64,000 nt of DNA, taken from Zoogloea dura (GTDB lineage Bacteria > Pseudomonadota > Gammaproteobacteria > Burkholderiales > Rhodocyclaceae). The notes under the pieces are model-generated. The model ran no database searches. It was given only the letters and a program-made list of their open reading frames with translations, and was not told the origin of the DNA. The DNA is taken from contig NZ_JABBGA010000009.1 in the NCBI RefSeq assembly GCF_012927165.1, forward strand, positions 124,001 through 188,000. Direction: 5' to 3'. The position numbers and the translations under genes are program-made. Shown one piece after another: positions 2,736-28,124 of the stretch (position 1 is its first letter; each line of letters begins with the position of its first letter).

Positions 2736-2748
2736 GGCCGCGCAGGCT

Positions 2749-3495: not shown

Positions 3496-3563
3496 GGCCG
3501 TTCCTCCCTGAACCCGTTCATTTCAGCCCCCCTTCCAGCGGGGCTCCAGCCCGCGATTTTACG

Positions 3564-4727
<1,164 letters not shown>

Positions 4728-4741
4728 GCCATGCCCGGGGC

Positions 4742-5683: not shown

Positions 5684-5767
5684 TTCGATACCCTGGATTA
5701 CATCAATCGATTTGAAGCATTTTACCCCGCCCACTAGACTGAACCATCCCATCCATCAGGACGTCCT

Positions 5768-7246: not shown

Positions 7247-7298
7247 GGCATCTTCCCCTAGGGCACATTGACAGCACGCCGGCCTGTCCCTGAAATGA

Positions 7299-9362
<2,064 letters not shown>

Positions 9363-9370
9363 CAAGACCA

Positions 9371-9395
9371 CGGGGCCGCGCAGGCGGCGGCCCCG
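9371..9395. terminator. GC-rich hairpin between convergent genes
   Basis: A 9-bp perfect stem (CGGGGCCGC at 9371-9379 with GCGGCCCCG at 9387-9395) and a 7-base loop lie between the stops of fadH and the convergent dehydrogenase gene. No T-run follows on either strand, so it is a plausible but non-canonical terminator. Confidence 0.4.
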
Positions 9396-9403
9396 ACCTG
9401 CAC

Positions 9404-10432
9404 TCAGCGGCCCATCCGGGCCCCCCAGCAGGCCGCCACGTCGATCATCCGGTTGGCAAAGCCCCACTCGTTGTCGAACCACACCAGCAGGTTGAGCAGG
9501 CGCGCGCCGCTCATGCGGGTCTGGCCGCCATCGATGATGGCCGAATGGGGGCTGTGGTTGAAGTCGATGGAGGCATGGGGATGCTCGGTGTAATCCATGC
9601 GGCCCGATTCGCTGCCGGCCACGGCAGCCCGCAGCAGGGCCTTCACCTCGGCGGCCGTGGTGTCGCAGCGCAGGGTCGCCACCAGGTCGATGGCCGATAC
9701 GTTGACCACCGGCACCCGGATCGCCTTGGACTCGATGCGACCTGCCAGTTCCGGCAGCATGCGCTGCACGCCACGGGCCAGGCCGGTGGATACCGGGATC
9801 ATCGACTGCATCGCCGAGCGGGTCCGGTGCAGATCGGTATGGTGATAGCCGTCGATCAGGGGCTGGTCGTTCATCACCGAATGCAGGGTGGTCAGCATGG
9901 CCTGCTCGATGCCGAAGCTGCGGTCCAGCAGGGCCAGCACCGGGGCGATCGCGTTGGTGGTGCAGGACGCCGCCGAGACGATGCGCTCATCCCCGCTGAG
10001 GAGGTCGTGGTTCATGCCGAACACCACGGTGCGGTCCACATCGCTGGCCGTGTGCCCGGGATGGGACAGCAGCAGGCGCCGGCAGCCCGCCGCCAGGAAA
10101 CGCTCCAGCTCATGCCGGTGACTGTAGCGCCCGGAGGCTTCCACCAGCACGTCCACGCCGATGGCCGCCCAATCGACCCCCTCGGGGGTCTCGGCGTGAA
10201 ACACCGGGATGACCGTGCCGTCGATCTTCAGGCAACCCTCGCCGGCCTCGACCTGGCCCGGGAAACAGCCATGGGTCGAGTCATAGCGGGTCAGGTAGGC
10301 CATGCTCTCCAGGTCCGCCGGCTCGTTGATGGCCACCACCTGGAAACGCCCCCGCACCGGCGAGGCGTGGAGGGCCCGCAGGAAACAGCGGCCGATCCGC
10401 CCATAGCCGTTGATCGCGATCCGCAAAGTCAT
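9404..10432 (-). CDS. epd: D-erythrose-4-phosphate dehydrogenase / GAPDH family
   Basis: A 342-residue NAD-dependent aldehyde dehydrogenase of the GAPDH family. The Rossmann start IAINGYGRIGRCFLRAL and the catalytic cysteine in SAASCTTNAIAP are plain. Several stretches match Epd rather than glycolytic GapA: LLSHPGHTASDVDRTVVFG, HSVMNDQPLIDGYH and DFNHSPHSAIIDGGQTRMSG. Epd makes 4-phosphoerythronate for pyridoxal phosphate synthesis, so that is my preferred call, with a GAPDH role as the alternative. The frame runs 37 codons further upstream, but the family match starts at the ATG at 10432. No pgk or fba gene lies beside it. Confidence 0.75.
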   Translation of the reverse strand: MTLRIAINGYGRIGRCFLRALHASPVRGRFQVVAINEPADLESMAYLTRYDSTHGCFPGQVEAGEGCLKIDGTVIPVFHAETPEGVDWAAIGVDVLVEASGRYSHRHELERFLAAGCRRLLLSHPGHTASDVDRTVVFGMNHDLLSGDERIVSAASCTTNAIAPVLALLDRSFGIEQAMLTTLHSVMNDQPLIDGYHHTDLHRTRSAMQSMIPVSTGLARGVQRMLPELAGRIESKAIRVPVVNVSAIDLVATLRCDTTAAEVKALLRAAVAGSESGRMDYTEHPHASIDFNHSPHSAIIDGGQTRMSGARLLNLLVWFDNEWGFANRMIDVAACWGARMGR

Positions 10433-10589
10433 GCTGCCGACATCCTTTCCATCCAAAGCTGGATCATCAAAGCCCGTCAGTCTAACGCCTTGACGCGCCA
10501 CCTGCCCAAGCGCTGCCAGCCCCGCTCCGCCGCCGCCGGTCAATCAACCCAATCCGGGTAAGAAAAATAATGAAAAATGATTAAAGAAG

Positions 10590-10691
10590 CGTACAGTTCC
10601 GCCGTTAGCGGAGTGTCTCCTCCACAGCCCTGAAAGACGGGCTCCTTGACCCGCCGGACAGCCCCCTCCTCTTGTCCGGCGGTGTTTTTTT
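10590..10691 (+). ncRNA. candidate small RNA with CUCC-rich loops
   Basis: No protein gene precedes the strong plus-strand terminator ending at 10691; the genes on both sides are on the minus strand. The 100 bases before it fold as three hairpins: TCCGC/GCGGA (10598-10602 with 10608-10612), AGCCC/GGGCT (10626-10630 with 10639-10643) and the terminator. Two unpaired segments carry anti-Shine-Dalgarno sequence: CTCCTCC at 10617-10623 and CCCCCTCCTC in the terminator loop. An AT-rich tract at 10558-10590 could be the promoter. The 5' end is a guess. Transcription and function are inference. Confidence 0.45.
10651..10691 (+). terminator. Rho-independent terminator, plus strand
   Basis: A perfect 10-bp stem (CCGCCGGACA at 10651-10660 with TGTCCGGCGG at 10673-10682) and a 12-base pyrimidine loop, followed by TG and seven T residues (10685-10691). 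The T-run is only on the plus strand, so it ends a rightward transcript. Confidence 0.85.
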
Positions 10692-10764
10692 ATCCTGCAG
10701 CCGAGCCCTCCGACCGCTCCCGGCCGTGAGCCCGACCGCCCGGCGCAGAGCAGGTCTGCTTCGA

Positions 10765-14519: not shown

Positions 14520-15551
14520 TCAGTTGCCGCGGCCGGCCTTTTCGATCTCCGCGAACATCTCCCGGGCGGTCTGTTCGCCGTACTGTTTCGCGTACTTGTC
14601 GATCAGCGGCCGGGTCTTCTCCTTCATCTTCGCCACCTCTTCCGGCGGCAGGGTGTTGATGCTCATCTTGGTCTTCAGGAAGGCCATCGCCTCGGCACCG
14701 TACTTCTGGGACAGCTGACGCTGATGGTCACGTGCCTCGACAGCCGCCTCGTTGAGGATCTTCTTCTCGTCAGCCGACAGCTTGTCGTAGGTCTTCTTGC
14801 TCATCAGCAGCATCTGCGGGTTGTACATGTGATTGGTGATCGTCACGTACTTCTGCACCTCGTAGAACTTGCTCTGCTGCAGGTTGATCAGGGTCTGGTT
14901 GCCGCCATCGACGGTCTTCTGCTCCAGCGCGGTGTACACCTCGACGAAGGGCAGCGGCACCGGGTTGGCGCCCAGGGCGGTCTGGAAGTCGATCTGCAGC
15001 GGGGTCTCGGTGACGCGGATCTTCAGGCCGGCGATGTCCTCGACCTTCTGGATCGGCTTCTTGCCGGTGTGGTAGTTCAGGTAGCCCATCTCCCACCAGC
15101 CCAGCCCGACCAGGCCCTTGTCCTGCAGCTTGGCCGCGAGCTTGCTGCCCCACTCGCCGTCCAGCACCTTGTAGGCGATCTTCTCGCTGGAGAAGGCAAA
15201 GGGGAAATCCAGCACGCCGAAATCCTTCACCAGGCCGGTGAGCAGGTTGGCGTTCATGATGGCCATCTCGATCACGCCACCCTGCATCAAGGACACCACC
15301 GCGGTGTCCTTGCCGAGGGCGCCGCCGCCGTACATCTTGGCCTTCATCTTGCCGCCGCTCTTCTTCTCGAGCAGCTCGCAGAACTTCACGCCGCCGTCGT
15401 AATGGGCCGTGCCGGCATTGACGGCGATGGCGACCTTGAAATTGCGCTCCTGGATGTCGGCCGCCCATACGGACACGGGTGCTGCGGCCAGGAAAGCGGT
15501 GCTCAACAGGCTGCCGAAGGCGAAGCTGCGGTACAGGGATTGGACTTTCAT
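14520..15551 (-). CDS. dctP: TRAP transporter substrate-binding protein (DctP), orphan
   Basis: A 343-residue periplasmic binding protein of the DctP family. A signal peptide (about residues 1-28, ending VWA) is followed by the family fold, with GGKMKAKMYGGGALGKD, IAGLKIRVTETPLQ and the late YNPQMLLMSKKTYDKLSADE. DctP proteins capture organic acids for the DctQM permease. No permease genes accompany it; the nearest are at 24.5-26.4 kb, next to a second dctP. The start at 15551 has GGAGAC upstream; the open frame extends far upstream but without family similarity. A TGCGCG-N5-CGCGCA palindrome 133 bp upstream is shared with the quiC and dctQ promoters, so co-regulation is likely. Confidence 0.9.
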   Translation of the reverse strand: MKVQSLYRSFAFGSLLSTAFLAAAPVSVWAADIQERNFKVAIAVNAGTAHYDGGVKFCELLEKKSGGKMKAKMYGGGALGKDTAVVSLMQGGVIEMAIMNANLLTGLVKDFGVLDFPFAFSSEKIAYKVLDGEWGSKLAAKLQDKGLVGLGWWEMGYLNYHTGKKPIQKVEDIAGLKIRVTETPLQIDFQTALGANPVPLPFVEVYTALEQKTVDGGNQTLINLQQSKFYEVQKYVTITNHMYNPQMLLMSKKTYDKLSADEKKILNEAAVEARDHQRQLSQKYGAEAMAFLKTKMSINTLPPEEVAKMKEKTRPLIDKYAKQYGEQTAREMFAEIEKAGRGN

Positions 15552-15683
15552 GATGTCTCCGTTGTTGTCGTGATCGACCGGGCCGCGGCACTGCCAGACC
15601 CGGATTCGTGGGGCAGATGCTAGCAATGGCCTCACCCTGTATTCGCGGCCTGCCGAGCGCATCTGCGCGACATGCGTCCGAAA

Positions 15684-15700
15684 TGCGCGATCAACGCGCA
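15684..15700. promoter_or_regulatory. Putative IclR operator upstream of orphan dctP
   Basis: TGCGCG-ATCAA-CGCGCA, a 17-bp palindrome matching sites at 19216, 26581 and 26774. A degenerate half-copy (TGCGCGACATGCG) begins at 15664. It lies 133 bp before the dctP start. Binding by the IclR protein encoded at 19283 is inferred. Confidence 0.6.
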
Positions 15701-15733
15701 CAACAGATCGCGCGGCCCGGGACTTATACGTCG

Positions 15734-15772
15734 GGGAAAAAGAAAGCCCACCGAACCAGGGGTCCGATGGGC
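15734..15772 (-). terminator. Terminator after the quiC-MFS operon
   Basis: On the minus strand a 12-bp stem with a few G-T pairs and a CCT loop (15746-15772) is followed by TTTCTTTTTC (15736-15745). It lies about 108 bp past the stop of the MFS gene and separates that operon from the dctP promoter. Confidence 0.8.
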
Positions 15773-15852
15773 CAAATGACCGGCGGGGACGAAATGGGAG
15801 GGAAGAACCCGCCGGTATGGACACTGCCGCCGGGCGGCTGCGTCCGTGGGAA

Positions 15853-15890
15853 TCAGGGCCCAAAGATCGGGCCCAAAGATCAGGGCCCGA
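15853..15890. repeat. Short tandem repeat around GGGCCC
   Basis: Two copies of GGGCCCAAAGATC, then a third GGGCCC, spaced about 14-16 bp apart, directly downstream of and partly overlapping the MFS stop codon (15880-15882). Confidence 0.7.
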
Positions 15891-17145
15891 AGGCCTCCCT
15901 GAGGCGCTTGCGCCGCTTGAACAGGAAGACCAGGCAGACGGCCAGCACCACGCCCTCCACCCACAGGGTATGGCGCACCCCCAGCCAGGCGGCCAGCAGC
16001 CCGGCCAGCAGGCCGCCGATGGCGTCGGCGCCAAAGCGGGCCGCCATGAAGAAGGACACCACGCGTCCGCGCAGGGCATCCGGCGCACTGGACTGCAGCA
16101 GCATGTTGATGCCGGCATTGCTCACGGCCACCCCGAAGCCGATCATCGCCAGGCCCAGGCAGGCCAGCGCCACCAGCCCGCCCACCCCGGTCACCGCCAG
16201 TCCGGCGGCGCACAGGGCCACCGCGCCGATCACGCCGAAGCTCAGGCGCGGCAAGGACTTCACCCCTGCCAGCGTGGAGGTGCCGACAAAGGCCCCGCCG
16301 CCGGCCGCGCCCCACAGCAGGCCCAGGGTGCGGGCATCGCCGAGGAAGACATCCTTGGCCAGGATGGGCAGCAGGGTGGCGTAGCTCGAGGCGGTGAGGT
16401 TCACCACGGCCAGTGCGGCGATCAGCACCCGCACCGACCAGGTCGACCACACGTAGCGGGCTCCCTCCTTGAAGACCCGCCCCACCGAGCCCCCTGCCCG
16501 CTGCAGCGGACGCCCCTCGGCGCGCAGCACCGCCACGATCAGGGACAGGAAGCTCAGGGCGTTGAGGGCGAAACAGGTGGCCTCCGAGGTCAGCCCGAGC
16601 AGCAGGCCGGCGATCGGCGGCCCGATGAAGCGCCCCCCATTGACCAGCATGGAGTTCAGGGCCAGGGCGTTCGGGAGGTCGTCCTTGTCACGCACGTAGG
16701 CGCTGATCAGCGCGTGGCGCAGCGGTGCATCGAAGCTGTTGAGCACCCCCAGCAAGGCCGACATGGCGACGATCAGGGCCGGGCCGATCCAGCCCGCCGC
16801 GCTCAGCCCGGCCAGGGTCAGGGCCTGCAGCCCGAGCAGGCTCTGCACGCCGATCAGCCAGCGCCGCTTGTCCTGCCGGTCGATCCAGGCCCCGGCCAGC
16901 GGCCCCACCAGCAGCTGGGGCACCAGCGCCACGAAGGTGGTCACCCCCAGCAGGGCCGCCGACCCGGTGATGCGGTACACCAGCCAGACCAGCGCCACCT
17001 GCTGGATCCACGACCCGAGCAGGGAGATGGCCTGCCCCGAAAAATACAACCGGAAATCCCGCGCCCGCAGGGAGCGCGCGAATTCCGGGATACGTGACTC
17101 CAATGGCTCAGGTGACTTGGGTGACTTGGGTGAATCAGGCAACAC
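15880..17145 (-). CDS. MFS transporter of the EntS-like MFS_3 family
   Basis: A 421-residue, 12-helix major facilitator permease. The opening RSLRARDFRLYFSGQAISLL and GSWIQQVALVWLVYRITGSA are typical of the MFS_3 (PF05977, EntS-like) family. The cytoplasmic N-terminus carries SPKSPKSP, encoded by a 9-bp tandem repeat at about 17106-17131. The start is a GTG at 17143-17145. It follows quiC by 31 bp on the same strand, so the two are probably co-transcribed. That context suggests transport of a quinate/shikimate-pathway compound, possibly export of excess intermediate, but the family also contains drug and siderophore exporters. Confidence 0.82.
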   Translation of the reverse strand: MLPDSPKSPKSPEPLESRIPEFARSLRARDFRLYFSGQAISLLGSWIQQVALVWLVYRITGSAALLGVTTFVALVPQLLVGPLAGAWIDRQDKRRWLIGVQSLLGLQALTLAGLSAAGWIGPALIVAMSALLGVLNSFDAPLRHALISAYVRDKDDLPNALALNSMLVNGGRFIGPPIAGLLLGLTSEATCFALNALSFLSLIVAVLRAEGRPLQRAGGSVGRVFKEGARYVWSTWSVRVLIAALAVVNLTASSYATLLPILAKDVFLGDARTLGLLWGAAGGGAFVGTSTLAGVKSLPRLSFGVIGAVALCAAGLAVTGVGGLVALACLGLAMIGFGVAVSNAGINMLLQSSAPDALRGRVVSFFMAARFGADAIGGLLAGLLAAWLGVRHTLWVEGVVLAVCLVFLFKRRKRLREAFGP

Positions 17146-17176
17146 GGAAGCTCCGAAGTGTCTTCAAGCCTCCACT

Positions 17177-19078
17177 TTACTGCGCACTCTGGGCCGTCAT
17201 CCGCACCGCCGCATTGGCTGCGCCGAATCCTGCATAGCGGCCGACGCGCTGGACGATCTCGAAGAAGAAGCTGCCCACGAAAGACCGCACGTAGAAGTGA
17301 AAGAAGGCCCCATCGGCGTTCTCGTCGTAGAGCACGCCGAACTGGCGCATGCGCTCGACCAGCCCCGGCTCCAGATCCAGCCGGGCCGCCAGATCATCGT
17401 AGTAGTTGTCGGGCACCGGCAACAGCGCGATGCCGCCGGCCCGCACCCGGGTGGCGCAGGCGAAGATGTCGTCGCAGGCCAGGGCGATATGGTGGATGCC
17501 GCCGCCCTGCAGGGTCTCGGCGGTGCGCCCGGTGGCCGTTGTGCGGCTCTGCGACACATTCAGGGCGATGCGCAGGGACTGGTCGTCGTTCACCATGGCG
17601 CAGCTGCGCACCAGGCCGTGGGGGTCGGCCAGCTCCAGGCTGGGCTGGGGGGCGAGCCCCAGCACCACCCGGTTGAACAGCACCCCGGTGTCGAACTGCT
17701 CCAGGGGGTAGGCATGAGCCAGGTGGTCCACCTGGCGGATGCCCGCCCGGCTGTGCCCCTGCCGGCCCGCCTCGATGACGAAATCACTCTCCAGGAAGCC
17801 CCGCTCTTCCAGGGCCTGGGAGACGAAGTAGATCACGCTGTCGTCCACCGCCCGCAGGGCCGGGATGATGGTCTCGTTGGGCCCCACGCGCCCCGCGTAA
17901 CGGGGCAGCTGGAAGGCCACCCCCCGGTTCACCGCCCGCTGGCCGTCATCGGTGGCAAGGCCCAGCGCACAGATCGACGGCCCGCGGCGCTGGAAGAAAT
18001 CCGCGGCAAAGGAGCCCGGCTCCTGGTTGAGGATGAGGCGCACCTCCCCCTGCTGATACAGCGTCACATCCTTGCTGCGGTGAGCCCCCAGGCGGTCGAA
18101 GCCCAGTCCCTCCAGGGCCCGGGCCAGCACGTGGCCGGAGGCCGCGTCCACCGCGAACTCGATGAAGGACACCCCCTTCAGGGTCGGCGGAGCCGGCGGG
18201 TTGAACAGCTCGATGCGCTCCGCCAGCTGCGCCGCCGCCGGATCCGCCACCGCCCGCGCCGCAATGCGCTGGCGCACCTGCTCTTCGAGGAAGAGCAGGG
18301 ATTCATGGGCATCCAGCGTGGTACGCCGGTTGGGTGCCGCGCGGAAGACGTCGTTGAACACCTCCAGCGACAGGGGCCCCGGGTAGCCTGCCATCAGCAC
18401 GTGTTCGACAAAGCGGGCCAGGTCGAAGGTGCCCTGCCCCGGGAAGCAGCGGAAATGGCGGCTCCACTGCAACACGTCCATGGCCAGCATCGGCGCGTCG
18501 GCCAGCTGCAGGAAGAACAGCTTGTCCGCCGGGATCGTCTCGATGCCCGCCGGATCGTCCCCCCGCGACAGGATGTGGAAGCTGTCCAGGCACAGGCCCA
18601 GGTGCGGGTGGTCGGCCTTCTTCACGATCTCCCAGGAGTGCAGGTAGCGATTGACGTGGTGGCCCCAGGCCAGCGCCTCGTAGGCCACCCGCAGCCCGCG
18701 CTCGGCGGCCTTCTCGGCCATGGCGTGGAGCTGGGATGCGAGCAGTTCGTCGTCGCAGATCATGTCCGGCTGCACGTTGGAGCACACCAGCAGCATGGGC
18801 GCGCCGAGCTCCACCATCAGGTCGAACTTGCGCTGGGCCCGGTCCAGGTTGCGCCGGAAGCGGGCCTCATCCACCCCGTCCATGTCGCGGAAGGGCTGGT
18901 ACAGGTCGATGCCCAGGCCCAGGTCGGCGCAGCGCTGGCGGATCTCCCGCGGTGACAGGCGGCTGGCGATGAGGTCGTTCTCGAAGATCTCGACGGCGTC
19001 GAAGCGGGCGCGGGCGATGGATTCGAGCTTTTCTTCGAGGGTGCCACTGATGCATACGGTGGCGATGGATCGGCGCAT
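17177..19078 (-). CDS. quiC: 3-dehydroshikimate dehydratase, QuiC1-type two-domain
   Basis: A 633-residue two-domain protein. The N-terminal TIM-barrel isomerase-like domain (about residues 1-270) opens RRSIATVCISGTLEEKLESI; the C-terminal VOC/4-hydroxyphenylpyruvate dioxygenase-like domain (about 300-620) keeps all three usual metal-ligand positions in VDHLAH, GIHHIAL and FFFEIVQR. Length and order match QuiC1 of Pseudomonas, which dehydrates 3-dehydroshikimate to protocatechuate. This links the shikimate genes at 20.3-21.6 kb to the ring-cleavage genes at 36-41 kb. The start at 19078 has GGAGA upstream. It is divergent from an IclR regulator and preceded by a palindromic site. Confidence 0.9.
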   Translation of the reverse strand: MRRSIATVCISGTLEEKLESIARARFDAVEIFENDLIASRLSPREIRQRCADLGLGIDLYQPFRDMDGVDEARFRRNLDRAQRKFDLMVELGAPMLLVCSNVQPDMICDDELLASQLHAMAEKAAERGLRVAYEALAWGHHVNRYLHSWEIVKKADHPHLGLCLDSFHILSRGDDPAGIETIPADKLFFLQLADAPMLAMDVLQWSRHFRCFPGQGTFDLARFVEHVLMAGYPGPLSLEVFNDVFRAAPNRRTTLDAHESLLFLEEQVRQRIAARAVADPAAAQLAERIELFNPPAPPTLKGVSFIEFAVDAASGHVLARALEGLGFDRLGAHRSKDVTLYQQGEVRLILNQEPGSFAADFFQRRGPSICALGLATDDGQRAVNRGVAFQLPRYAGRVGPNETIIPALRAVDDSVIYFVSQALEERGFLESDFVIEAGRQGHSRAGIRQVDHLAHAYPLEQFDTGVLFNRVVLGLAPQPSLELADPHGLVRSCAMVNDDQSLRIALNVSQSRTTATGRTAETLQGGGIHHIALACDDIFACATRVRAGGIALLPVPDNYYDDLAARLDLEPGLVERMRQFGVLYDENADGAFFHFYVRSFVGSFFFEIVQRVGRYAGFGAANAAVRMTAQSAQ

Positions 19079-19215
19079 TTCGGGTCTCCGCCTGGTGGGT
19101 CTTGTGGGATCTCGTGGTGTCACGGCAGCCGCTCCGCAGGGCAATCGGCCGCTCTCTCCGGCAGGAGAATCTTAGGGAGCACCCACCGCCACGAACATTG
19201 CCCCAGGGGTTCGAT

Positions 19216-19232
19216 TGCGCGACAATCGCGCA
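19216..19232. promoter_or_regulatory. Putative IclR operator between quiC and its regulator
   Basis: TGCGCG-ACAAT-CGCGCA, a 17-bp site lying 138 bp before quiC and 51 bp before the iclR-type gene. More GCGCG half-sites follow to about 19253 (GCGCGCACC and TCGCGCGAA). Central placement in the divergent promoter fits autoregulation plus quiC control. Confidence 0.65.
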
Positions 19233-19282
19233 GCGCGCACCAATAATCGCGCGAATTCCAATAACGATAACGGAGACATCCC

Positions 19283-20053
19283 ATGACCGAAGAGCAGCAG
19301 CTCGACCGGCGGGACTGGATTGCCGGGCTGGAGAAAGGCCTCAAGGTGATCGAGGCCTTCAACGATGCCCACCCCCGCCTGACCCCCTCCACCGCGGCCC
19401 GCCGCACCGGCATCACCCGCACCGCAGCACGCCGCTACCTGCTCACCCTGGAGCACCTGGGCTATGTGCAGACCGACGGCACCCACTTCTGGCTGACCCC
19501 GCGCATCCTGCGCCTGGGCTGGTCGTATTTCGATTCGGCCAAGGTGCCGCGCGCCGTGCAGCCCTTCCTGCAGCGCATCAGCATGGAGCTGGGCGGCTCG
19601 GCCTTCTTCGCGGTACTGGACGAGGACGAGGTGGTCTTCGTGGCCCGCAACGGCAACGGCCGGGTGCAGAGCCTCGGCTTTGTGCTGGGCGCGCGCATCG
19701 CCGCCAACCTCGCATCGGCGGGCATCGTGCTGCTGGCCTGTCGCCCGCCCGAGGAAGTGGGCCGCTGGCTGGAAGGGCGCAAGTTCGTCCCTTACACCCC
19801 GCACAGCATGACCAATGTGGACGACGTCCGCGCCGTGATCCAGGCCGCCCGCGGCAACGGCTACTGCATCCTCGAACAGCAGCTGGAACAGGGCCGCCGG
19901 GGCATCGCCGTACCCGTGCGCACCCGCGCCGGCGAAGTGGTGGGGGCCATCAGCGTGAGCCTCTCCATCGGCAACGAAACCACCCAGCAGGCCCTGTCGC
20001 GCACCCTGCCGGTGCTGCGGGAGGCGGAACATGCACTGCTGGCGCTGCTGTAG
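19283..20053 (+). CDS. IclR-family regulator of quinate/shikimate catabolism
   Basis: A 256-residue IclR-family regulator, the family that includes PcaU, PcaR, PobR and QuiR of aromatic catabolism. The N-terminal winged helix (about residues 12-75, GLEKGLKVIEAFNDAHPRLT) is followed by the effector domain (about 80-250), with NLASAGIVLLAC and the late GRRGIAVPVRTRAGEVVGAI. It is divergent from quiC; TGCGCG-N5-CGCGCA sites lie in this gap and before the other catabolic units. The inducer is probably protocatechuate, quinate or shikimate, by family precedent only. Confidence 0.87.
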   Translation: MTEEQQLDRRDWIAGLEKGLKVIEAFNDAHPRLTPSTAARRTGITRTAARRYLLTLEHLGYVQTDGTHFWLTPRILRLGWSYFDSAKVPRAVQPFLQRISMELGGSAFFAVLDEDEVVFVARNGNGRVQSLGFVLGARIAANLASAGIVLLACRPPEEVGRWLEGRKFVPYTPHSMTNVDDVRAVIQAARGNGYCILEQQLEQGRRGIAVPVRTRAGEVVGAISVSLSIGNETTQQALSRTLPVLREAEHALLALL

Positions 20054-20072
20054 GGGTGGCCGGAGCCACCCC
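20053..20072 (+). terminator. Hairpin at the end of the IclR gene
   Basis: A perfect 8-bp stem (GGGGTGGC with GCCACCCC) and a CGGA loop begin at the last base of the stop codon. No T-run follows, so termination is uncertain. Confidence 0.4.
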
Positions 20073-20075
20073 TGC

Positions 20076-20306
20076 AACAGTCCTGTCAGTCGTTCTCGCA
20101 GCCCCTGAAATCCTTCTCGCAGCCTTGTGAATCGTCCTCACAGCGCCTGTAATCCTTCTCTCAGGCCTGTGGATCGATATAACAGCGCTGTGAATCCTTC
20201 CCACAGCCCTGTGAATCGTCCTCACAGCGCCTGAAATCCTTCTCTCAGGCTTGTGAATCGATCCAACAGCCCTGCGAATCCTTCTCACAGGCCTGCGAAC
20301 CCTTCC
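20076..20306. repeat. 21-bp tandem repeat array (about 11 units)
   Basis: About eleven diverged units of 20-22 bp, with consensus near CACAGCCCTGTGAATCCTTCT. Each unit centres on a small palindrome (CACAG..CTGTG). The pattern also repeats at about 84 bp, four units at a time: the stretch from about 20126 is echoed from about 20210. The array fills the gap between the convergent IclR and aroQ genes and stops one base before the aroQ stop codon. There are no unique spacers, so it is not a CRISPR. Confidence 0.9.
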
Positions 20307-20307
20307 C

Positions 20308-20742
20308 CTACAACGCCGCCACCGCCGCCCGCAGGGCGAGCAGGTAGCTGTCGGCGCCGAAGCCGCAGATCTGCCCGCGCACGATATCGGCGAACACCGA
20401 CACGTGGCGGAAGGGCTCACGGGCATGGATGTTGGACATGTGCAGCTCCACGACCGGACAGGTGAGGATGGCCAGCGCGTCGCGGATGCCGTAGCTGTAA
20501 TGGGTCCAGGCCCCGGCATTGATGAGCACCGCATCCACCCCGTCGGTGAAGGCCTGGTGGATGCGCAGGCACATGTCACCTTCGTGGTTGGTCTGGTAGC
20601 TGTCCACGACGACGCCGAGTTCGTGGCCCAGGGCCTGCAGGCGGGCGTCGATGTCGGCCAGGGTCACCGTGCCGTACTGCACCGGGTCGCGCTTGCCGAA
20701 CATGTTGTGGTTGATGCCGTGGAGCATCAGGATCTTCTTCAT
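20308..20742 (-). CDS. aroQ: Type II 3-dehydroquinate dehydratase
   Basis: A 144-residue type II dehydroquinase, a dodecameric enzyme converting 3-dehydroquinate to 3-dehydroshikimate. Conserved blocks are NAGAWTHYSYGIRDAL and VELHMSNIHAREPFRHVSV. The active-site lid reads HGINHNMFGKRDPVQYG where most AroQ proteins have NGPNLNLLGxREPxxYG; the key Asn, Arg and Tyr remain. This divergence and the catabolic neighbours suggest a QuiB-like degradative role rather than aromatic amino-acid synthesis. It follows aroE by 12 bp and is the last gene of the dctQ operon. Confidence 0.9.
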   Translation of the reverse strand: MKKILMLHGINHNMFGKRDPVQYGTVTLADIDARLQALGHELGVVVDSYQTNHEGDMCLRIHQAFTDGVDAVLINAGAWTHYSYGIRDALAILTCPVVELHMSNIHAREPFRHVSVFADIVRGQICGFGADSYLLALRAAVAAL

Positions 20743-20754
20743 GACCGGGTCCTT

Positions 20755-21588
20755 TCAGTACTGGATCTGCGAGACGGCGCGCAGTTCGTCCGGGGTGGCA
20801 GTGCCGAAGCCGAAGAACTCCAGGTAGGCCGGGATCATCTCGAAGAGCATGTCGGTGCCCACCTGGATCGGGCAGCCCTTGGCCTGGGCCGCAGCCAGCA
20901 GCGGGGTGATGGCCTGCTTCATGACGACCTCGCCGACGAAGGTGTGCGGGTCGACCCGCGCCATGTCGAAGGGCAGCGGGTCGCTGTCCTTCATGCCGAG
21001 GGGCGTGGCATTGACGATCAGGTCGAAGCCGGCCGGATCATTGGAGCCGACGCGGACCTTCAGGGCGGGGTAATGGCTGCGCAGGCGCTCGGCCAGCGCC
21101 GCAGCGGATTCGGGCCAGGCGTCGTACAAGGCCATCTCGGCCACCCCGGCGGCAGCCAGCGAAGCCGCAATGGCGCAACCGACACCGCCGCTGCCCGACA
21201 CCAGCACGCGCCGGCCCTGCAGGGCCTGGCCCTTGCGCAGCACGCCGCGCACGAAGCCGGCACCGTCGAACTGGTCGCCCAGCAGGCTGCCGTCCGGGCG
21301 CAGCAGGATGGCGTTGCAGGCACCCGCGATGCGGGCTGTGGGGGTCACCTCGTCCACCAGGGACAGGGTGGTGACCTTGTGGGGCATGGTGACGAGGGCG
21401 CCCCGGAAGTTGGTCATCCGGCGCAGGGACTCGACGGCGGCCGGGTAGTCCTCGGGCTTGACGCCCATGGGCATCACGACGGCGTCGATGCCCCGGGATT
21501 CGAACCACGGGTTGTAGATCATCGGCGCCTTGAAGCTCTCGGTGGGATAGCCCAGATGCGCGATGACGGTCGTCTTTCCGCTGATCAT
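20755..21588 (-). CDS. aroE: Shikimate/quinate dehydrogenase, AroE-like
   Basis: A 277-residue protein of the shikimate dehydrogenase family. Visible motifs are TMPHK with the catalytic Lys, the DGAGF substrate Asp and the cofactor loop VSGSGGVGCAIAASLAAAG. The substrate-entry motif reads ESFKAPMIYN instead of the usual SKSPxxHN, so substrate preference may differ from biosynthetic AroE. In this operon it would oxidise shikimate (or quinate) to its 3-dehydro form, feeding AroQ and QuiC. The cofactor cannot be decided. It follows the universal stress gene by 38 bp. Confidence 0.85.
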   Translation of the reverse strand: MISGKTTVIAHLGYPTESFKAPMIYNPWFESRGIDAVVMPMGVKPEDYPAAVESLRRMTNFRGALVTMPHKVTTLSLVDEVTPTARIAGACNAILLRPDGSLLGDQFDGAGFVRGVLRKGQALQGRRVLVSGSGGVGCAIAASLAAAGVAEMALYDAWPESAAALAERLRSHYPALKVRVGSNDPAGFDLIVNATPLGMKDSDPLPFDMARVDPHTFVGEVVMKQAITPLLAAAQAKGCPIQVGTDMLFEMIPAYLEFFGFGTATPDELRAVSQIQY

Positions 21589-21626
21589 GGTCTGTGTTTC
21601 CTTTATTGCGGTGGGGTGTCGGCGCC

Positions 21627-22049
21627 TCAGCGGCTGATCAACACCGGCACCTTGCTGTAATGAAGAACCTTGGTGGTTTCACTGCCCATCAGCAGGCTGC
21701 GCAAGCCGAGCCGGCCGTGGGAGGCCATGCAGATCAGGTCGCAGCCGGTGCTGTCGGCAGCCCGGACGATCTCCTCGGCCACCGAGTCACCGCTGACGAA
21801 GAAGCAGTCGCAGGGCACGCCGGCCTTCTTCGCTTCGTCGGCGACAAAGGCCAGGAACATTTCGGCATTGGCGTTGAGCTGGGCGTCGCCCACCATGGTG
21901 TCGCCCAAGCCCCGGGGGGTCATGGCGTGCAGGACGACGCACAGGCCGGTGACGCGGGCGCCGGTCGCCCGGGCCAACTGGATGCCGTGCAGCACGGCCT
22001 TGTGGGACAGCTCCGAGCCATCGGTCGGCAACAGGATGTGGGTGTACAT
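21627..22049 (-). CDS. Universal stress protein (UspA family)
   Basis: A 140-residue UspA-fold protein. It begins YTHILLPTDGSELSHKAV and ends with the ATP-binding-type motif ASHGRLGLRSLLMGSETTKV. The ATG at 22049 has AAGGACA upstream. It lies in the middle of a transport and shikimate operon with a second, different Usp gene just before it (143-bp gap). A role there is unknown: it may regulate the transporter or signal energy state. Confidence 0.88.
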   Translation of the reverse strand: MYTHILLPTDGSELSHKAVLHGIQLARATGARVTGLCVVLHAMTPRGLGDTMVGDAQLNANAEMFLAFVADEAKKAGVPCDCFFVSGDSVAEEIVRAADSTGCDLICMASHGRLGLRSLLMGSETTKVLHYSKVPVLISR

Positions 22050-22192
22050 GGCATGTCCTTTCGTGGGGCGCAGGCCCGGTTTCAAGGAAATCGGCGCGCA
22101 GGGGCCCTCCCTCCGGTGGAAACCGGAGGTTCGGCGTCATCAATCAGGATCGGGTTGGGGGGTGGCCGGGCTTCAGCGCACCCCGGCCGGCA

Positions 22193-22621
22193 TCACTTCA
22201 CCAAGGTGACCGGCACGTCGGCGAGGCGCACCACCTCGGCGGCGATCGAGCCCAGGAAGAGCTTGGCCAGCGCACCGCGCCCGTGGGTGGTCATGAAGAT
22301 CTCGTCACAGCCCTTTTCGCGGGCAAAGCCGCTGATCACCACCGCCGCGTCCTCGCCCACCAGCACATGGCGGCTGGCCTCGATGCCGGCGGCGGCCAGC
22401 CCCGCATGCACCGCGGCCAGGGCCTTGAGGCCCTCCTCCCGGTGGAAGTCCTGGAGCTTGTCGTGACCGACGAACTGGCCCACGTCCTGGCCAACCGGGT
22501 GCTGCACGTTGATCAGGTGGATCTCCGCCGGTCCGGCCAGACGGGCAAGCCAGGCGGGAAGCGCCTTGAGCACCGCAGCGGACGCTTCGGAGCCATCAAC
22601 GGGAATCAGGATCTTGCTCAT
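22193..22621 (-). CDS. Universal stress protein (UspA family), second copy
   Basis: A 142-residue UspA-fold protein, begins SKILIPVDGSEASAAVLKAL and has the motif TTHGRGALAKLFLGSIAAEV near the C-terminus. It is only distantly similar to its neighbour at 21627, so the pair is not a recent duplication. The start at 22621 has AAGGAGG upstream and follows the terC-like stop by 13 bp, so the genes are coupled. TRAP permeases with dedicated Usp partners (TeaD) are known, which is the best hint to its role. Confidence 0.88.
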   Translation of the reverse strand: MSKILIPVDGSEASAAVLKALPAWLARLAGPAEIHLINVQHPVGQDVGQFVGHDKLQDFHREEGLKALAAVHAGLAAAGIEASRHVLVGEDAAVVISGFAREKGCDEIFMTTHGRGALAKLFLGSIAAEVVRLADVPVTLVK

Positions 22622-22634
22622 GAATGCGCCTCCT

Positions 22635-23375
22635 TCAACGGGGTGTGCCGGATTCGGGGGAAGCCTCCCCCAGGGACAGTTCGAGGGCCGCCTTGCGCGC
22701 CTTGCGGGCGGCCAGCAGCTTGCCGACCGAGACCACGAAGACCGCGCCGGCAAGCGGCAGGGCCCGGTGCAGCCAGGCCGCGTTGGCATCGATCCACGGC
22801 CCCAGGAAGAGGTCGCTGACCACCATCTCGCCGGCCACGAAGCCCAGCAGCGCGGCACCGCCGGTGACCACCACCGGGAAGCGCTCCATCACCTTCATCA
22901 GGAAGGTGCTCGAGAACACCACCAGCGGAATGCTCAGCCCCAGGCCGAAGATGAGCAGCAGCAGGCTGCCCTTGGATGCCCCGGCGATGGCCACCACGTT
23001 GTCCATGCTCATCACCAGGTCGGCGATCATGATGGTCTTGATGGCGGCGATGAAACCGCCCTTGACCATCTGGCCCTCGCCTTCGCCTTCGTCCTCCGGC
23101 AGCAGCAGCTGCACGGCGATCCACAGCAGGAGCCCGGCCCCGGCCACCTTCAGCAGCGGCAGGCGGAGCAGCTCGGCGGCCACGATGGTGAGGGTCACCC
23201 GCATCACCACCGCCGCGCTGCTGCCCCACATCACCGCCCGCCGGCGATCGGCCTCCGGCAACGAGCGGGCCGCCAGGGCGATCACCACCGCGTTGTCGCC
23301 CGACAGCACGATGTCGATGCCGATGATCTGGATCAGGGCGATCCAGAAGGCATGGTCGAAAACGAACTCTTGCAT
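22635..23375 (-). CDS. TerC family integral membrane protein
   Basis: A 246-residue TerC/YkoY family membrane protein with about seven helices. The two family motifs are present: GIDIVLSGDNAVVIALAARS near the N-terminus and IADLVMSMDNVVAIAG in the middle, the acidic positions thought to bind metal. Members are linked to tellurite resistance or Mn/Ca export. It sits between a TRAP binding protein and two Usp genes in one operon; no tellurite genes are near. Its presence in a shikimate operon is unexplained. Confidence 0.87.
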   Translation of the reverse strand: MQEFVFDHAFWIALIQIIGIDIVLSGDNAVVIALAARSLPEADRRRAVMWGSSAAVVMRVTLTIVAAELLRLPLLKVAGAGLLLWIAVQLLLPEDEGEGEGQMVKGGFIAAIKTIMIADLVMSMDNVVAIAGASKGSLLLLIFGLGLSIPLVVFSSTFLMKVMERFPVVVTGGAALLGFVAGEMVVSDLFLGPWIDANAAWLHRALPLAGAVFVVSVGKLLAARKARKAALELSLGEASPESGTPR

Positions 23376-23418
23376 TGCGTCCTTCCTTCCTGAGGGGCGC
23401 GGTACGCCCCGTGCTGAT

Positions 23419-24429
23419 TTACTTGCGAACCTTGGCGATCTCGGCGTAGAGGGTCTTGACCGTCTCTGCACCGACCGATGCGCTGTACTTTTCCACCACC
23501 GGCTTGACCTTGTCACGCATGCGCTGCAGCTCGGCCGGCGCGATCTCGGTCACCTGCATGCCGGCCTTCTTCAGGTCCTCCAGCGCCTCATTGGCCTGCT
23601 GGCGGGACACCTGGCGCTGGTAGGCAGTGGCCTCGGTGGCGGCGTCAGTGATGATTTTCCGCTCATCGGCGCTCAGGGTATCCCAGAGCTTCTTGCTGAA
23701 GATGAGGGACTGCGGGTTGTAGATGTGACGGGTCTGGGCCAGGTGCTTCTGCACCTCGTTCAGCTTGGCCGTGCGGATGGTGGTGTTGGGGTTCTCCTGA
23801 CCATCCACCGCCTTCTGCTCGAGGGCGCTATACACCTCCGGCCAGGCCAGCGGCGTGGGGTTGGCGCCCAGGGCGGTGAAGATGTCCACGTAGATCGGCG
23901 ACTGGATCACCCGCAGCTTGAGGCCGGCGATGTCTTCCACCCGGGTGATCGGGTGCTTGCTGTTGGTGATGTTGCGGAAGCCGAGGTCCCAGTAGCCCAG
24001 GCCGACCAGGCCCCTGGGCGCCAGCTTGGCGTGCAGACCCTGGCCGAAGGCGCCGTCGGTCACGGCATCAGCCTCCTGCGGATTGGCGAACAGGAAGGGG
24101 AAATCGAATACCGCAAACTCCTTGCTGAGGCTCTGCAGGATGCCCGAGTTGAGCACGCTGATCTCGATGGTGCCGCCCTGCACTGCCGAAATGGTCTGCA
24201 CATCGCCGCCGAGCTGGCCGCCCGGGAAGAGCTTGACCTTGATCTTGCCGCCGGACCTGGCTGCGACGAGTTCGGCGAACTTCTGGGCGCCCATTTCCTG
24301 GGGGTGGCCCTTGTTGTTCTGGAAGGCGAACTTGAGGGTCCGCTCCTTGATGTCCGCAGCCTGGGCGGCGGTCATCGGGAGCAGTGCGGCCAGGGCCAGC
24401 ACGAAGGCGCGACGGGTAAAACGGATCAT
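23419..24429 (-). CDS. dctP: TRAP transporter substrate-binding protein (DctP)
   Basis: A 336-residue DctP-family binding protein. A signal peptide (about residues 1-24, ending AQA) leads into GGKIKVKLFPGGQLGGD, IAGLKLRVIQSPIY and YNPQSLIFSKKLWDTLSADE. It pairs with the DctM and DctQ genes immediately upstream (81-bp gap to dctM). Given the aroE, aroQ and quiC neighbours, quinate, shikimate or dehydroshikimate is the likely ligand. It is clearly homologous to the orphan DctP at 14520 but diverged. Confidence 0.9.
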   Translation of the reverse strand: MIRFTRRAFVLALAALLPMTAAQAADIKERTLKFAFQNNKGHPQEMGAQKFAELVAARSGGKIKVKLFPGGQLGGDVQTISAVQGGTIEISVLNSGILQSLSKEFAVFDFPFLFANPQEADAVTDGAFGQGLHAKLAPRGLVGLGYWDLGFRNITNSKHPITRVEDIAGLKLRVIQSPIYVDIFTALGANPTPLAWPEVYSALEQKAVDGQENPNTTIRTAKLNEVQKHLAQTRHIYNPQSLIFSKKLWDTLSADERKIITDAATEATAYQRQVSRQQANEALEDLKKAGMQVTEIAPAELQRMRDKVKPVVEKYSASVGAETVKTLYAEIAKVRK

Positions 24430-24510
24430 GGGGTGTCTCCTGTCTATTTGTATGGACTTGCCTGTTGCGGTCAGCCCGGCGACCGCGCCCGTTATGTCAG
24501 GGAGCCGAAC

Positions 24511-25788
24511 TCAGTTGAACCAGCTGGCCGGCACCATCACCAGCGGCGGGAAGAGGATCATCAGCAGCAGGGCCAGCAGTTCGGCCAGCATGAAGGGCCA
24601 GACGCCTTTCATCAGATCGTCCATGCTCACCTTGCCGACCCCGGCCACCACGTTGAGCACGGTGCCCACCGGCGGGGTGATCAGGCCGATGGCGTTGTTG
24701 ATGATGAAGAGCACGCCGAAGTAGATCGGGTCGATGCCGGCCTTCAGGACGATGGGCATGAGTACCGGGGTCAGGATCAGGATGGTCGGCGTCATGTCCA
24801 TGGCCGTACCAACGATCACCACCACCATCATCATTGCGAACATCAGCAGGATCTTGTTGCCCATGAAGGGCTCGAGCAGCTCGACGATCTGGCCCGGCAG
24901 GTCGGCCACCGTGATCAGCCAGGCGGAGACGAGCGCCGCGGCGACAAGGAACATCACGATCGCCGTAGTCTTGGCCGCGGCCACCAGCACCCCGTAGATC
25001 TGGCTGACTTTCAGCTCGCGGTAGATCACCACGGCCACGAACAGCGAATACACGGCGCACACAACGGCCGCCTCGGTCGGCGTGAAGATGCCGAACTTGA
25101 GCCCGAAGATGATGATCAGCGGCAGCATCAGGGCCCAGAAACCATCGGCCAGGGTCTTCAGCACTTCGCCGGCGCTCTTGCGCGGAGGAGGAGCCAGATT
25201 CTCGTCACGGGCCACCCACCACCAGGCCGCCACCAGGGACAGGCCGATGAGCAGGCCGGGAAAGATGCCAGCCAGGAACAGCTTGGAGATCGACAGGTTG
25301 GCCGCCACACCGAAGACGATGAAACCGATGGAAGGCGGGATGATCGGGCCGATGATGCCGCCCGCCGCGATCAAGCCACAGGACTTGGCCCGATCGTGCC
25401 CGGCGCCGACCATCATCGGCACCAGCAGAGCCGACAACGCCGCCGCGTCCGCCACGGCCGACCCCGACAGGGCCGCCAGCAGGCAGGACGCCAGGATGGC
25501 CACATAACCGAGGCCGCCCCGGACATGACCGACCAGTGCCATGGCCACATTGACGATGCGCTTCGACAGGCCGCCGGTATTCATGATCTCGCCGGCCAGC
25601 ATGAAGAAGGGCACGGCCATCAGCGGAAAGCTGTCGGCGCCATTGGTCAGGTTCTGGGCGATGATCTGGGCATCCATCATGTCCAGGTGGTACATCAGGG
25701 CCAGGCCGCAGACGAGCAGGGCAAAGGCAATGGGCATCCCCAGCGCCATCGCGCCAAGCAGGGAGCCGAGAAATACGGTAATCGTCAT
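24511..25788 (-). CDS. dctM: TRAP transporter large permease (DctM)
   Basis: A 425-residue integral membrane protein of the DctM family, with about 12 helices, the sodium-coupled translocating subunit. Family features include the PFFMLAGEIMNTGGLSKRIV stretch, SGSAVADAAALSALLVPMM and GIITPT-like GIFTPTEAAVVCAVYSLF. It lies between dctQ (18-bp gap) and dctP, the usual tripartite order Q-M-P. Its start is an ATG at 25788. Confidence 0.92.
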   Translation of the reverse strand: MTITVFLGSLLGAMALGMPIAFALLVCGLALMYHLDMMDAQIIAQNLTNGADSFPLMAVPFFMLAGEIMNTGGLSKRIVNVAMALVGHVRGGLGYVAILASCLLAALSGSAVADAAALSALLVPMMVGAGHDRAKSCGLIAAGGIIGPIIPPSIGFIVFGVAANLSISKLFLAGIFPGLLIGLSLVAAWWWVARDENLAPPPRKSAGEVLKTLADGFWALMLPLIIIFGLKFGIFTPTEAAVVCAVYSLFVAVVIYRELKVSQIYGVLVAAAKTTAIVMFLVAAALVSAWLITVADLPGQIVELLEPFMGNKILLMFAMMMVVVIVGTAMDMTPTILILTPVLMPIVLKAGIDPIYFGVLFIINNAIGLITPPVGTVLNVVAGVGKVSMDDLMKGVWPFMLAELLALLLMILFPPLVMVPASWFN

Positions 25789-25806
25789 GATCAGTCTCCC
25801 GGGGTC

Positions 25807-26379
25807 TTACTTGGCGGTGCTGGCGATGGAGGACGGTGCGGACACCTGGCCGTGGTGGTGGGCCACTTCGGCCAGTTCCTCCGACTCGGTCACCATCACC
25901 AGCTCGTGGTCCTGCAACTTGCCGGCCAGCACCCGGTACAGGTCATTGAGCACGATGCCGGCCGCAGTCACGCTGAACACCAGGCCGATGCCGTAGAACC
26001 AGGCCATCGACAGGCCGGATGCCGGGGCCTGCACGTCCAGGTTGATCTGGGTCTGGGCCAGGCTGCCGGAGAAGAGGAACCACAACACACCGAGGATCAG
26101 CAGCTGGCTGGCCACCAGGCAGACTTTCTTGCCGAACGGGGACAGACGGGACACCAGGGAATCGACCCCCAGGTGGCCGTGTTCCTTCATGCCCACCAGA
26201 GCCCCCAGGAAGGTCAGCCACACAAAGAGCCAGCGGGACAACTCCTCGGAAACCGGAATGCCGCTGTTGAAGGCGTAACGCAACACCACGTTGCCGAAGA
26301 CCAGCACCACCATCACGGCCAGGCACAGGGCGATCAGCATTTTCAGCAGATGGAAATATCCATCGACGATCTTTTTCAT
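25807..26379 (-). CDS. dctQ: TRAP transporter small permease (DctQ)
   Basis: A 190-residue, four-helix small TRAP subunit. The family stretch NSGIPVSEELSRWLFVWLTF is present in the second half of helix 1-2. The C-terminus has an unusual extension rich in Glu and His (SEELAEVAHHHGQVS). The start at 26379 has AAGGAGG upstream; the longer frame has no family similarity. It heads the eight-gene operon running to aroQ. An operator-like palindrome lies 202 bp upstream at 26581. Confidence 0.88.
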   Translation of the reverse strand: MKKIVDGYFHLLKMLIALCLAVMVVLVFGNVVLRYAFNSGIPVSEELSRWLFVWLTFLGALVGMKEHGHLGVDSLVSRLSPFGKKVCLVASQLLILGVLWFLFSGSLAQTQINLDVQAPASGLSMAWFYGIGLVFSVTAAGIVLNDLYRVLAGKLQDHELVMVTESEELAEVAHHHGQVSAPSSIASTAK

Positions 26380-26580
26380 TGACTCCTCCTTAGGGAACAG
26401 GCTGTCGCCCATCGCGTCCCGGCGGAACGGCGGGCACCGGGGCCGGCTCTTGATGACCGGCTGCCGGGCTTCGCTCCAGGGCTCGCATTCCCAAGAATTT
26501 CCAAGACACCCTGGGCGATTCAGCATGGGACGCAGCTTATCGACGCGGGGCGGGCGGAAGAATCAGGTGAAAAGCGGTGT

Positions 26581-26597
26581 TGCGCGAACAACGCGCA
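26581..26597. promoter_or_regulatory. Putative IclR operator upstream of dctQ operon
   Basis: TGCGCG-AACAA-CGCGCA, 17 bp, matching the quiC and orphan dctP sites. It lies in the 566-bp gap between dctQ and the porin gene. Confidence 0.65.
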
Positions 26598-26601
26598 CAG
26601 G

Positions 26602-26618
26602 TGCGCGATAGCCGCTCA
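26602..26618. promoter_or_regulatory. Second, imperfect operator copy upstream of dctQ
   Basis: TGCGCG-ATAGC-CGCTCA, one mismatch in the right arm, starting 21 bp after the first base of the neighbouring site, that is two helical turns on the same face. Confidence 0.5.
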
Positions 26619-26773
26619 GCTTCAATGCTGCGGCGCAATAGATCGAAATTCAGGGAAATCGCTGCGTTCGTACCGCCAAAAGGTTTCCATGAGGCCTGGA
26701 AAACCGACTCCCGGCCCCCTGCTCTCCACATGCCTCCGCCTGAAATCGAAGCTGAGCGGCAATCGCGCAAGCA

Positions 26774-26790
26774 CGCGCGATCAGCGCGCA
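26774..26790. promoter_or_regulatory. Putative IclR operator upstream of porin gene
   Basis: CGCGCG-ATCAG-CGCGCA, one mismatch to the consensus, with an extra CGCGCA half-site at 26764-26769. It lies 155 bp before the porin start. The rest of the 26380-26945 gap shows no gene. Confidence 0.55.
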
Positions 26791-26945: not shown

Positions 26946-28124
26946 ATGAACGCAAAGACCATCAGCACCGTCCTGGCCAGCCTGGCCGCCCTGAGCGCCG
27001 CCAGCGCCCATGCCGAGCTGCCCCCGATCGAAGTCGGCGGTGCCACCTTCAACCTGTACGGCAACATCGACCAGTACCTCAACTTCATGCGCAGCAGCTC
27101 GGGCAAGAGCCTCAATGCACTGGAAGAAGGCGGCTACCTGCGCACCCGGGTCGGCGTGCGCGGCGAAAAGCCGGTGGAAGACGGCATGTCGGTCAAGTTC
27201 CAGCTGGAGCAGGGCCTCAACATCACCAACGGCTCCCAGGCCGACACCACCCGCCTGTTCGACCGCCAGGCCTGGGTGGGCCTGAAGACCCAGTACGGCG
27301 AATTCCGCGCCGGCCGCCAGAACACCGCGGTGTTCTATCGCGGCAGCTACATCGACTTCACTGCCCGCACCATGGGCTCGGTGGTCAACATCTTCGGCGT
27401 CCCCTCGCGCTACGACAGCGACCTGGCGTGGATCTCCAACCGCATGAGCGGCCTGTTGCTGGAAGCCCACTACTCCTTCCAGGGCGCCAAGGAGAACGAG
27501 ACCGCCAACCAGGGCGTCTACCAGCTCGCCGCCGACTACGAAAACGGCCCCTTCCGGGTCGGCTACGCCGGCATCGGCGGCAAGGCCCCCAATGGCGCCA
27601 CGGTGGACCGCACCGTGATGTACAACAACTTCTACGCCAACTACGACTACGGCAAGGGCAAGATCTACGCGGCTTACATCCGCAGCAACAACAACGCCAC
27701 CGCCTGCTCCAGCAGCACCGCGCCCTGCCCCTCCGCCAGCCTGCTCAACAACGGCGGCTCGCCCCTTGGCAACACCGGCTCCCTGGTCACCGGCACCAAC
27801 ACCGGCGCCAACACCTACTACAACGTGTACCAACTGTCGGCCGACTACAAGCTGACCCCGAAGCTGCGCGTCGGCGCCCTCTACGGCCGCATCGACGACA
27901 CCTCCAACACCGGCAAGAACGCCGCCGGCTGGGCCATCGGCGGTTACTACGACATCTTCAAGGACACCATGGTGTACGCCCTGGTGGATGTCATCGACAA
28001 CGACAAGAACGCCGGCTTCCGCCCGGCGGGCTCCGCCGGCCTGCCCAAGAACTACAGCGCCGCCGCCGACGTGAATGGCGAGAGCATCCGCGGCGTGCAG
28101 CTGGGCTTCGTGTACAGGTTCTGA
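26946..28124 (+). CDS. Outer-membrane porin, Gram-negative porin family
   Basis: A 392-residue beta-barrel porin of the betaproteobacterial trimeric type. A signal peptide (about residues 1-23, ending AHA) is followed by alternating strands, with VKFQLEQGLNITNGSQ, FDRQAWVGLKTQYGEFRAGRQ and the C-terminal GVQLGFVYRF, ending in the Phe needed for outer-membrane assembly. Loops are rich in Asn, Ser and Gly. The ATG at 26946 has GAGGAG upstream. The shared operator-like site upstream suggests it is the entry pore for the quinate/shikimate pathway; selectivity is not evident from sequence. Confidence 0.9.
   Translation: MNAKTISTVLASLAALSAASAHAELPPIEVGGATFNLYGNIDQYLNFMRSSSGKSLNALEEGGYLRTRVGVRGEKPVEDGMSVKFQLEQGLNITNGSQADTTRLFDRQAWVGLKTQYGEFRAGRQNTAVFYRGSYIDFTARTMGSVVNIFGVPSRYDSDLAWISNRMSGLLLEAHYSFQGAKENETANQGVYQLAADYENGPFRVGYAGIGGKAPNGATVDRTVMYNNFYANYDYGKGKIYAAYIRSNNNATACSSSTAPCPSASLLNNGGSPLGNTGSLVTGTNTGANTYYNVYQLSADYKLTPKLRVGALYGRIDDTSNTGKNAAGWAIGGYYDIFKDTMVYALVDVIDNDKNAGFRPAGSAGLPKNYSAAADVNGESIRGVQLGFVYRF

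Follow-up and report, generated by a model that had tools for sequence, protein, structure and literature searches.

In the IclR family of transcription factors, tandem sites located 18-22 nt apart were described for 94 ortholog groups and explained by tetramers bound on one face of the DNA (PMC8222616). An external direct half-site was reported for PcaU, PobR and HmgR, being required for DNA binding in the case of PcaU, and residues R56, T57, R60 and R61 of PobR were reported as critical (PMC8222616). In Acinetobacter baylyi, PcaU controls two divergent promoters, its own and that of the pca operon, which also contains the qui genes (PMC4213383). IclR-family regulogs containing quinate/shikimate and 4-hydroxyphenylpyruvate genes have been predicted by Suvorova and Gelfand 2021 (PMC8222616).

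We analyzed a 64,000-nt stretch of the Zoogloea dura genome (hereafter, the window), which encodes an IclR-family protein at position 19283. A preliminary description of this DNA had noticed a shared palindrome upstream of several putative quinate/shikimate genes and had assigned it to this protein. According to our analysis, six palindromes in the window very probably constitute four compound operators of a PcaU/PobR-like regulator, which is predicted to repress its own gene and to activate the uptake and conversion of quinate/shikimate.

The closest known counterpart is the pcaU-pcaI operator of A. baylyi, which likewise belongs to an IclR-family protein and combines a palindrome with an external direct half-site (PMC8222616). 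The predicted control of the regulator's own and divergent promoters, as well as the qui genes under this control, also resembles the PcaU system (PMC4213383). However, the half-site is GCGCG in Zoogloea and GTTCG in PcaU, the Zoogloea regulon has several scattered operators and includes TRAP genes and a porin, and its neighbouring ring-cleavage genes, which belong to the protocatechuate 4,5-type, possess no site. The 21-bp phase of the Zoogloea operators is presumably the same as in the PcaU operator.

The operators of PobR and PcaR (GTNCG-N5-CGNAC) share with those of Zoogloea the 17-bp palindrome and the 5-base spacer, and the pattern R-T-A-x-R-R is found in the recognition helix of the 19283 protein, as in PobR (PMC8222616). 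The two systems differ in that the Zoogloea half-site has C where the PobR/PcaR group has T, and in that the 19283 protein scores below the cut-off of the PcaR/PcaU/PobR model. The regulogs of Suvorova and Gelfand are similar in gene content and in the tandem sites 18-22 nt apart, whereas the four subgroup consensuses in the main text of that paper do not cover TGC-11-GCA (PMC8222616). Both the operator architecture and the control of quinate/shikimate genes by IclR proteins are already in print, while the regulon content and the half-site C in place of the family-consensus T are new with respect to the main text of that work (PMC8222616). A literature search found nothing joining Zoogloea with quinate, and among the matches listed for QuiR and QuiC there was no regulator of this kind.

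Palindromic sites in the window and in the genome

The preliminary description listed exact copies of TGCGCG-N5-CGCGCA at 15684, 19216 and 26581 and copies with one mismatch at 26602 and 26774, all of which were recovered by scanning the window. A sixth palindrome, at 26753, had been overlooked; it has one mismatch and the spacer GCAAT. The rule that each spacer begins with A therefore holds on the plus strand for the original five sites and fails for the full set. The window contains a further one-mismatch match at 7945, far from the quinate/shikimate genes.

A palindrome frequent at random across the genome would have counted against the shared regulon, and the proposed genome scan found the exact pattern to be rare. 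It occurs at five places in the 5.83-Mb draft genome (83 contigs), three of them in the window, against one place for the reversed-pattern control; the two exact copies outside the window have spacers without the leading A. At one mismatch or fewer, at least 65 places were found genome-wide (26 for the control). At two mismatches or fewer, the window contains 15 matches where 19.69 were expected, and at least 15 were also obtained in 91 of 100 shuffled sequences. Since this loose count shows no excess, the case rests on the stringent forms of the motif and on related genomes.

A recognition matrix was built on 14 sites from other genomes, of which one has the same sequence as the site at 19216. 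Its six highest-scoring hits in the window were the six palindromes (14.1-25.9 bits), followed by a match of 7.8 bits. Among 40 first-order Markov sequences of 64 kb, the mean number of hits at 14 bits or more was 0.25, with at most two in a sequence. A separate matrix was derived from the window sites themselves, so that its scores there are circular. No comparable sites besides the six were found in the window by the matrix scan; in particular, the observation that no copy precedes ligJ, pobA or galD was borne out for the lig region.

Anatomy of the compound operators

The six palindromes are parts of four compound operators (Table 1), each consisting of a 17-bp palindrome and a further half-site located 21 bp (in one case, 20 bp) closer to the controlled gene. 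Thus, the single 17-bp palindromes of the preliminary description are present, but they belong to larger elements phased at 21 bp. The centres of the two palindromes upstream of dctQ, as well as those upstream of the porin gene, are 21 bp apart, that is, within the 18-22 nt characteristic of IclR tandem sites.

Table 1. Predicted operators and genes of the quinate/shikimate regulon in the window
Feature	Position	Strand	Description
dctP operator	15664..15700	-	palindrome 15684-15700; extra half-site 15664-15670, 20 bp phase, dctP side; also in SB3 (L023)
iclR (probably also quiC) operator	19216..19253	+	palindrome 19216-19232; extra half-site 19247-19253, 21 bp phase, iclR side
dctQ operon operator	26581..26618	-	two palindromes (26581, 26602), 21 bp apart
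porin operator	26753..26790	+	two palindromes (26753, 26774), 21 bp apart
orphan dctP	14520..15551	-	TRAP solute-binding protein; TIGR00787, 238.8 bits, over cut-off
MFS transporter gene	15880..17145	-	downstream of quiC; TIGR00900, 149.2 bits, under cut-off
quiC	17177..19078	-	3-dehydroshikimate dehydratase, HPPD-like C-terminal part; NF042435, 776 bits, cut-off 1200 missed; start by eye
iclR	19283..20053	+	IclR-family regulator, 256 aa, proposed reader of the operators
aroQ	20308..20742	-	type II 3-dehydroquinate dehydratase; TIGR01088, 170.2 bits, over cut-off
aroE-like	20755..21588	-	shikimate/quinate dehydrogenase; highest NCBIfam score 156.9 bits, cut-off missed
operon dctP	23419..24429	-	TRAP solute-binding protein; TIGR00787, 276.6 bits, over cut-off
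dctM	24511..25788	-	TRAP large permease; TIGR00786, 485.3 bits, over cut-off
dctQ	25807..26379	-	TRAP small permease, first gene of the operon; PF04290, 94.8 bits; start by eye
porin gene	26946..28124	+	outer-membrane porin; PF13609, 133.2 bits; start by eye

The 38-bp double palindrome is found with three mismatches or fewer at two places in the genome, both in the window, and at none for the control. The palindrome combined with the third box gave five forward and five reverse genomic matches at two mismatches or fewer (two and one for the control); every match with one mismatch lies in the window, and the five other genomic places have two mismatches. The consensus with up to three mismatches occurs at 25 genomic places besides the six window sites, and when 23 of these and the two other exact places were tested for the fourth box, the best match was 5 of 7 bases. 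In the profile of half-sites over offsets, +21 is prominent (z 4.8); this profile omitted the near-duplicate loci L019, L022, L023, L071 and L072 and used three second palindromes (26581, 26774 and 12405 in L021) as primaries.

The iclR operator overlaps the sole promoter-like match of its gap (19219-19247), and its end is separated from the ATG codon by 29 nt, which suggests autorepression. The other operators end further upstream of the start codons (112 nt for dctP, 201 nt for dctQ and 155 nt for the porin gene), which points to activation, and quiC is located 137 nt from the iclR operator. The promoter search recognized no promoters at the catabolic units, no terminator-like elements were called at the operators, and the Rfam search of the window gave no match. 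A terminator-like hairpin with 13 pairs and a T-rich tail (15745-15773, minus strand) separates the MFS gene from the dctP operator, consistent with dctP being a transcription unit of its own.

Gene content of the predicted regulon

The gene set fits the uptake of quinate/shikimate and their conversion to protocatechuate, with the QuiC and AroE matches being below the curated cut-offs. The eight-gene operon proposed in the preliminary description is plausible and comprises dctQ, dctM, dctP, yjbE/terC, a second usp-like frame (by eye), usp, aroE and aroQ. The YjbE-type metal transporter gene and this second usp-like frame (start at about 22621) lie within positions 22193-23375, between the TRAP genes and aroE. 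Genes of protocatechuate 4,5-cleavage (lig) are also present in the window.

The IclR-family regulator

The iclR product was assigned to the IclR family by the HTH_IclR (54.7 bits; cut-off 22) and IclR_C (84.6 bits; cut-off 24) domains. The TIGR02431 model (PcaR/PcaU/PobR) covers nearly the whole protein at 256.7 bits, below its cut-off of 284.75. The half-site in the window is GCGCG, whereas the TIGR02431 group has palindromes of GTNCG with an N5 spacer; the spacing is the same. Because of the deviating half-site and the missed cut-off, we did not classify the protein as a member of the PcaR/PcaU/PobR group. Its recognition helix is R-T-A-A-R-R, which conforms to R-T-A-x-R-R and, as we read this pattern, would align with R56, T57, R60 and R61 of PobR. 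The solved relatives of the regulator include 8eju (Pca-regulon regulator) and 5hpf (PobR effector domain). In the Z. dura genome, the IclR HTH model has 11 matches, and the next IclR paralogs are 20-25% identical to the 19283 protein.

Conservation of the operators in related genomes

The proteins encoded in the window are 87-99% identical to those of two contigs of Zoogloea sp. SB3. All nine genomes compared have the operator immediately before their iclR ortholog; these are the window, SB3 (nearly a duplicate of the window), SZAS-76, SZAS-77, Z. oleivorans, LCSB751 and three genomes of a sister genus (G105, G141 and G052), whose regulators are 64-69% identical. Each of the nine operators has the PcaU-type architecture, with a palindrome and an external direct half-site at the 21-bp phase. 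The mean match of 7 bases is 6.56 in box 1, 6.89 in box 2 and 6.33 in box 4, the last being matched at 6-7 bases in every operator. Box 3 averages 2.56 of 7 against a background of 1.95; the third box of the iclR operators has decayed.

The operator is retained under different gene contexts. In G052, no other match to the 27 tested window proteins was found in the 19.9-kb stretch around iclR. In G105, the operator is kept although genes of other families diverge from iclR, with similarity to an acylating aldehyde dehydrogenase and to a thiamine-diphosphate enzyme; the aroE, aroQ and TRAP genes are located 4-9 kb from iclR. Against the proposed regulon, the operon content differs in G094 and in SB3-like or other relatives. 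Among 14 catabolic operators, which were chosen from hits of the window-derived matrix, a choice that in itself selects for boxes 1 and 2, box 4 is matched at five or more of 7 bases in 12; the exceptions are the window dctP operator, with its 20-bp phase, and the second operator of G105, which lacks box 4.

Within the genus (six genomes), the consensus with at most one mismatch is present in all three genomes with the regulator and in none of the three without it, the latter defined by no regulator match at E <= 1e-40. In the family, a single consensus match at this level occurs in five of six genomes with an ortholog and in 49 of 193 others (Fisher p 0.006), where the ortholog limit of E <= 1e-100 was set after seeing the genus results and some of the 193 possess weaker relatives; such single-motif co-occurrence is a weak test and no proof. 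Two or more consensus matches within 11 kb are found in three of 199 family genomes (G190, G094 and G105), all of which carry the regulator. The double palindrome is matched in 38 of the 199 genomes, with places near the regulator gene in G000, G190 and G105; in G094 this search gave no match, though the regulator is present. A search of a class-wide sample found no orthologs at E <= 1e-70 in its 368 other genomes, the only match being in the own genome.

Proposed mechanism and alternative explanations

From the observed sites, their phasing, their conservation beside the regulator gene and their genomic rarity, we infer the following mode of binding, tetramer formation, direction of control and inducer. 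The 17-bp palindrome would be bound by one dimer, and the half-site(s) at the 21-bp distance, which face the same side of the helix, would be contacted either by another dimer or by the remaining half of a tetramer. The regulator would repress its own gene via the iclR operator and, in the presence of inducer, activate dctP, the dctQ operon and the porin gene, while quiC would probably be controlled divergently from the iclR operator. Quinate/shikimate would be imported via the porin and the TRAP transporters and converted to protocatechuate by the AroE-like enzyme, AroQ and QuiC. Candidate inducers are quinate, shikimate, dehydroshikimate and protocatechuate, and all units may answer to one signal.

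Many IclR proteins are repressors, and the overlap of the iclR operator with the only promoter-like match in its gap would also suit a plain repressor of all units that acts at the same operators, is released by an inducer and activates nothing. We regard this as possible but considerably less probable than activation, since the remaining operators, at 112-201 nt from the start codons, are far for steric blocking unless the leaders are long. As to which protein reads the sites, the 11 matches to the IclR HTH model leave room for a different regulator, such as another IclR or a LysR protein, with the position beside iclR being incidental. This appears improbable, as the site accompanies the orthologous iclR in nine of nine genomes, even in G052 where quinate genes are absent nearby, and is missing from the three genus members that lack a 19283-type regulator; moreover, the genome has no close paralogs. 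The assignment to the 19283 protein made in the preliminary description is therefore supported by conservation beside iclR, co-occurrence in the genus, the PcaR/PcaU/PobR-like form of the operators and the distance of the paralogs, all of which are comparative evidence.

The lack of window excess at two mismatches or fewer is what would be expected if the palindromes were chance occurrences in GC-rich sequence. Chance was rejected on the rarity and clustering of the exact pattern, the double palindrome, the ranking by the matrix from other genomes, and the phasing and conservation in nine genomes. RNA hairpins or terminators were rejected on the negative Rfam search of the window and the absence of terminator-like calls at the operators. 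Together, these origins are extremely improbable.

A second IclR clade and related gene strings

A second clade of IclR proteins (34-39% identical) is encoded in L082 (G094, 552-6414) and in L080 (G139) and L083 (G115), at about 4400-10700. These regulators adjoin related TRAP and usp genes and, in L080 and L083, also quiC and aroE-like genes. Upstream of the regulators we read by eye GTGCGC-N3-GCGCAC, not the TGCGCG type, in three of three cases. The second-clade regulator of G094 is adjoined by a gene with 77% identity to the window's orphan dctP, which suggests operator exchange. It can be tentatively proposed that a narrow clade of quinate/shikimate regulators, seen in our searches only in Zoogloea and one sister genus, keeps the helix pattern of PobR and reads GCGCG instead of GTNCG, and that the same genes would have passed between the two regulators by operator exchange.

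Two gene strings of G105 (L086, 1163-11340; L073, 10894-19845) combine an acylating aldehyde dehydrogenase, an acetolactate-synthase-like thiamine-diphosphate enzyme, and aroE-like and TRAP genes, with an operator upstream; the L086 string also encodes HMG-CoA-lyase-like and citryl-CoA-lyase-like proteins. As pure speculation, these strings could provide a ring-opening route for quinate-like acids that bypasses protocatechuate.

With defined operators, the gene cluster of Z. dura becomes a predicted regulon, in which a single regulator would govern entry through the outer membrane, two TRAP binding proteins and the route to protocatechuate. It may serve as a natural case for studying why the half-sites of IclR proteins follow a phase of two helical turns, and how a half-site can diverge although the known contact residues are kept.
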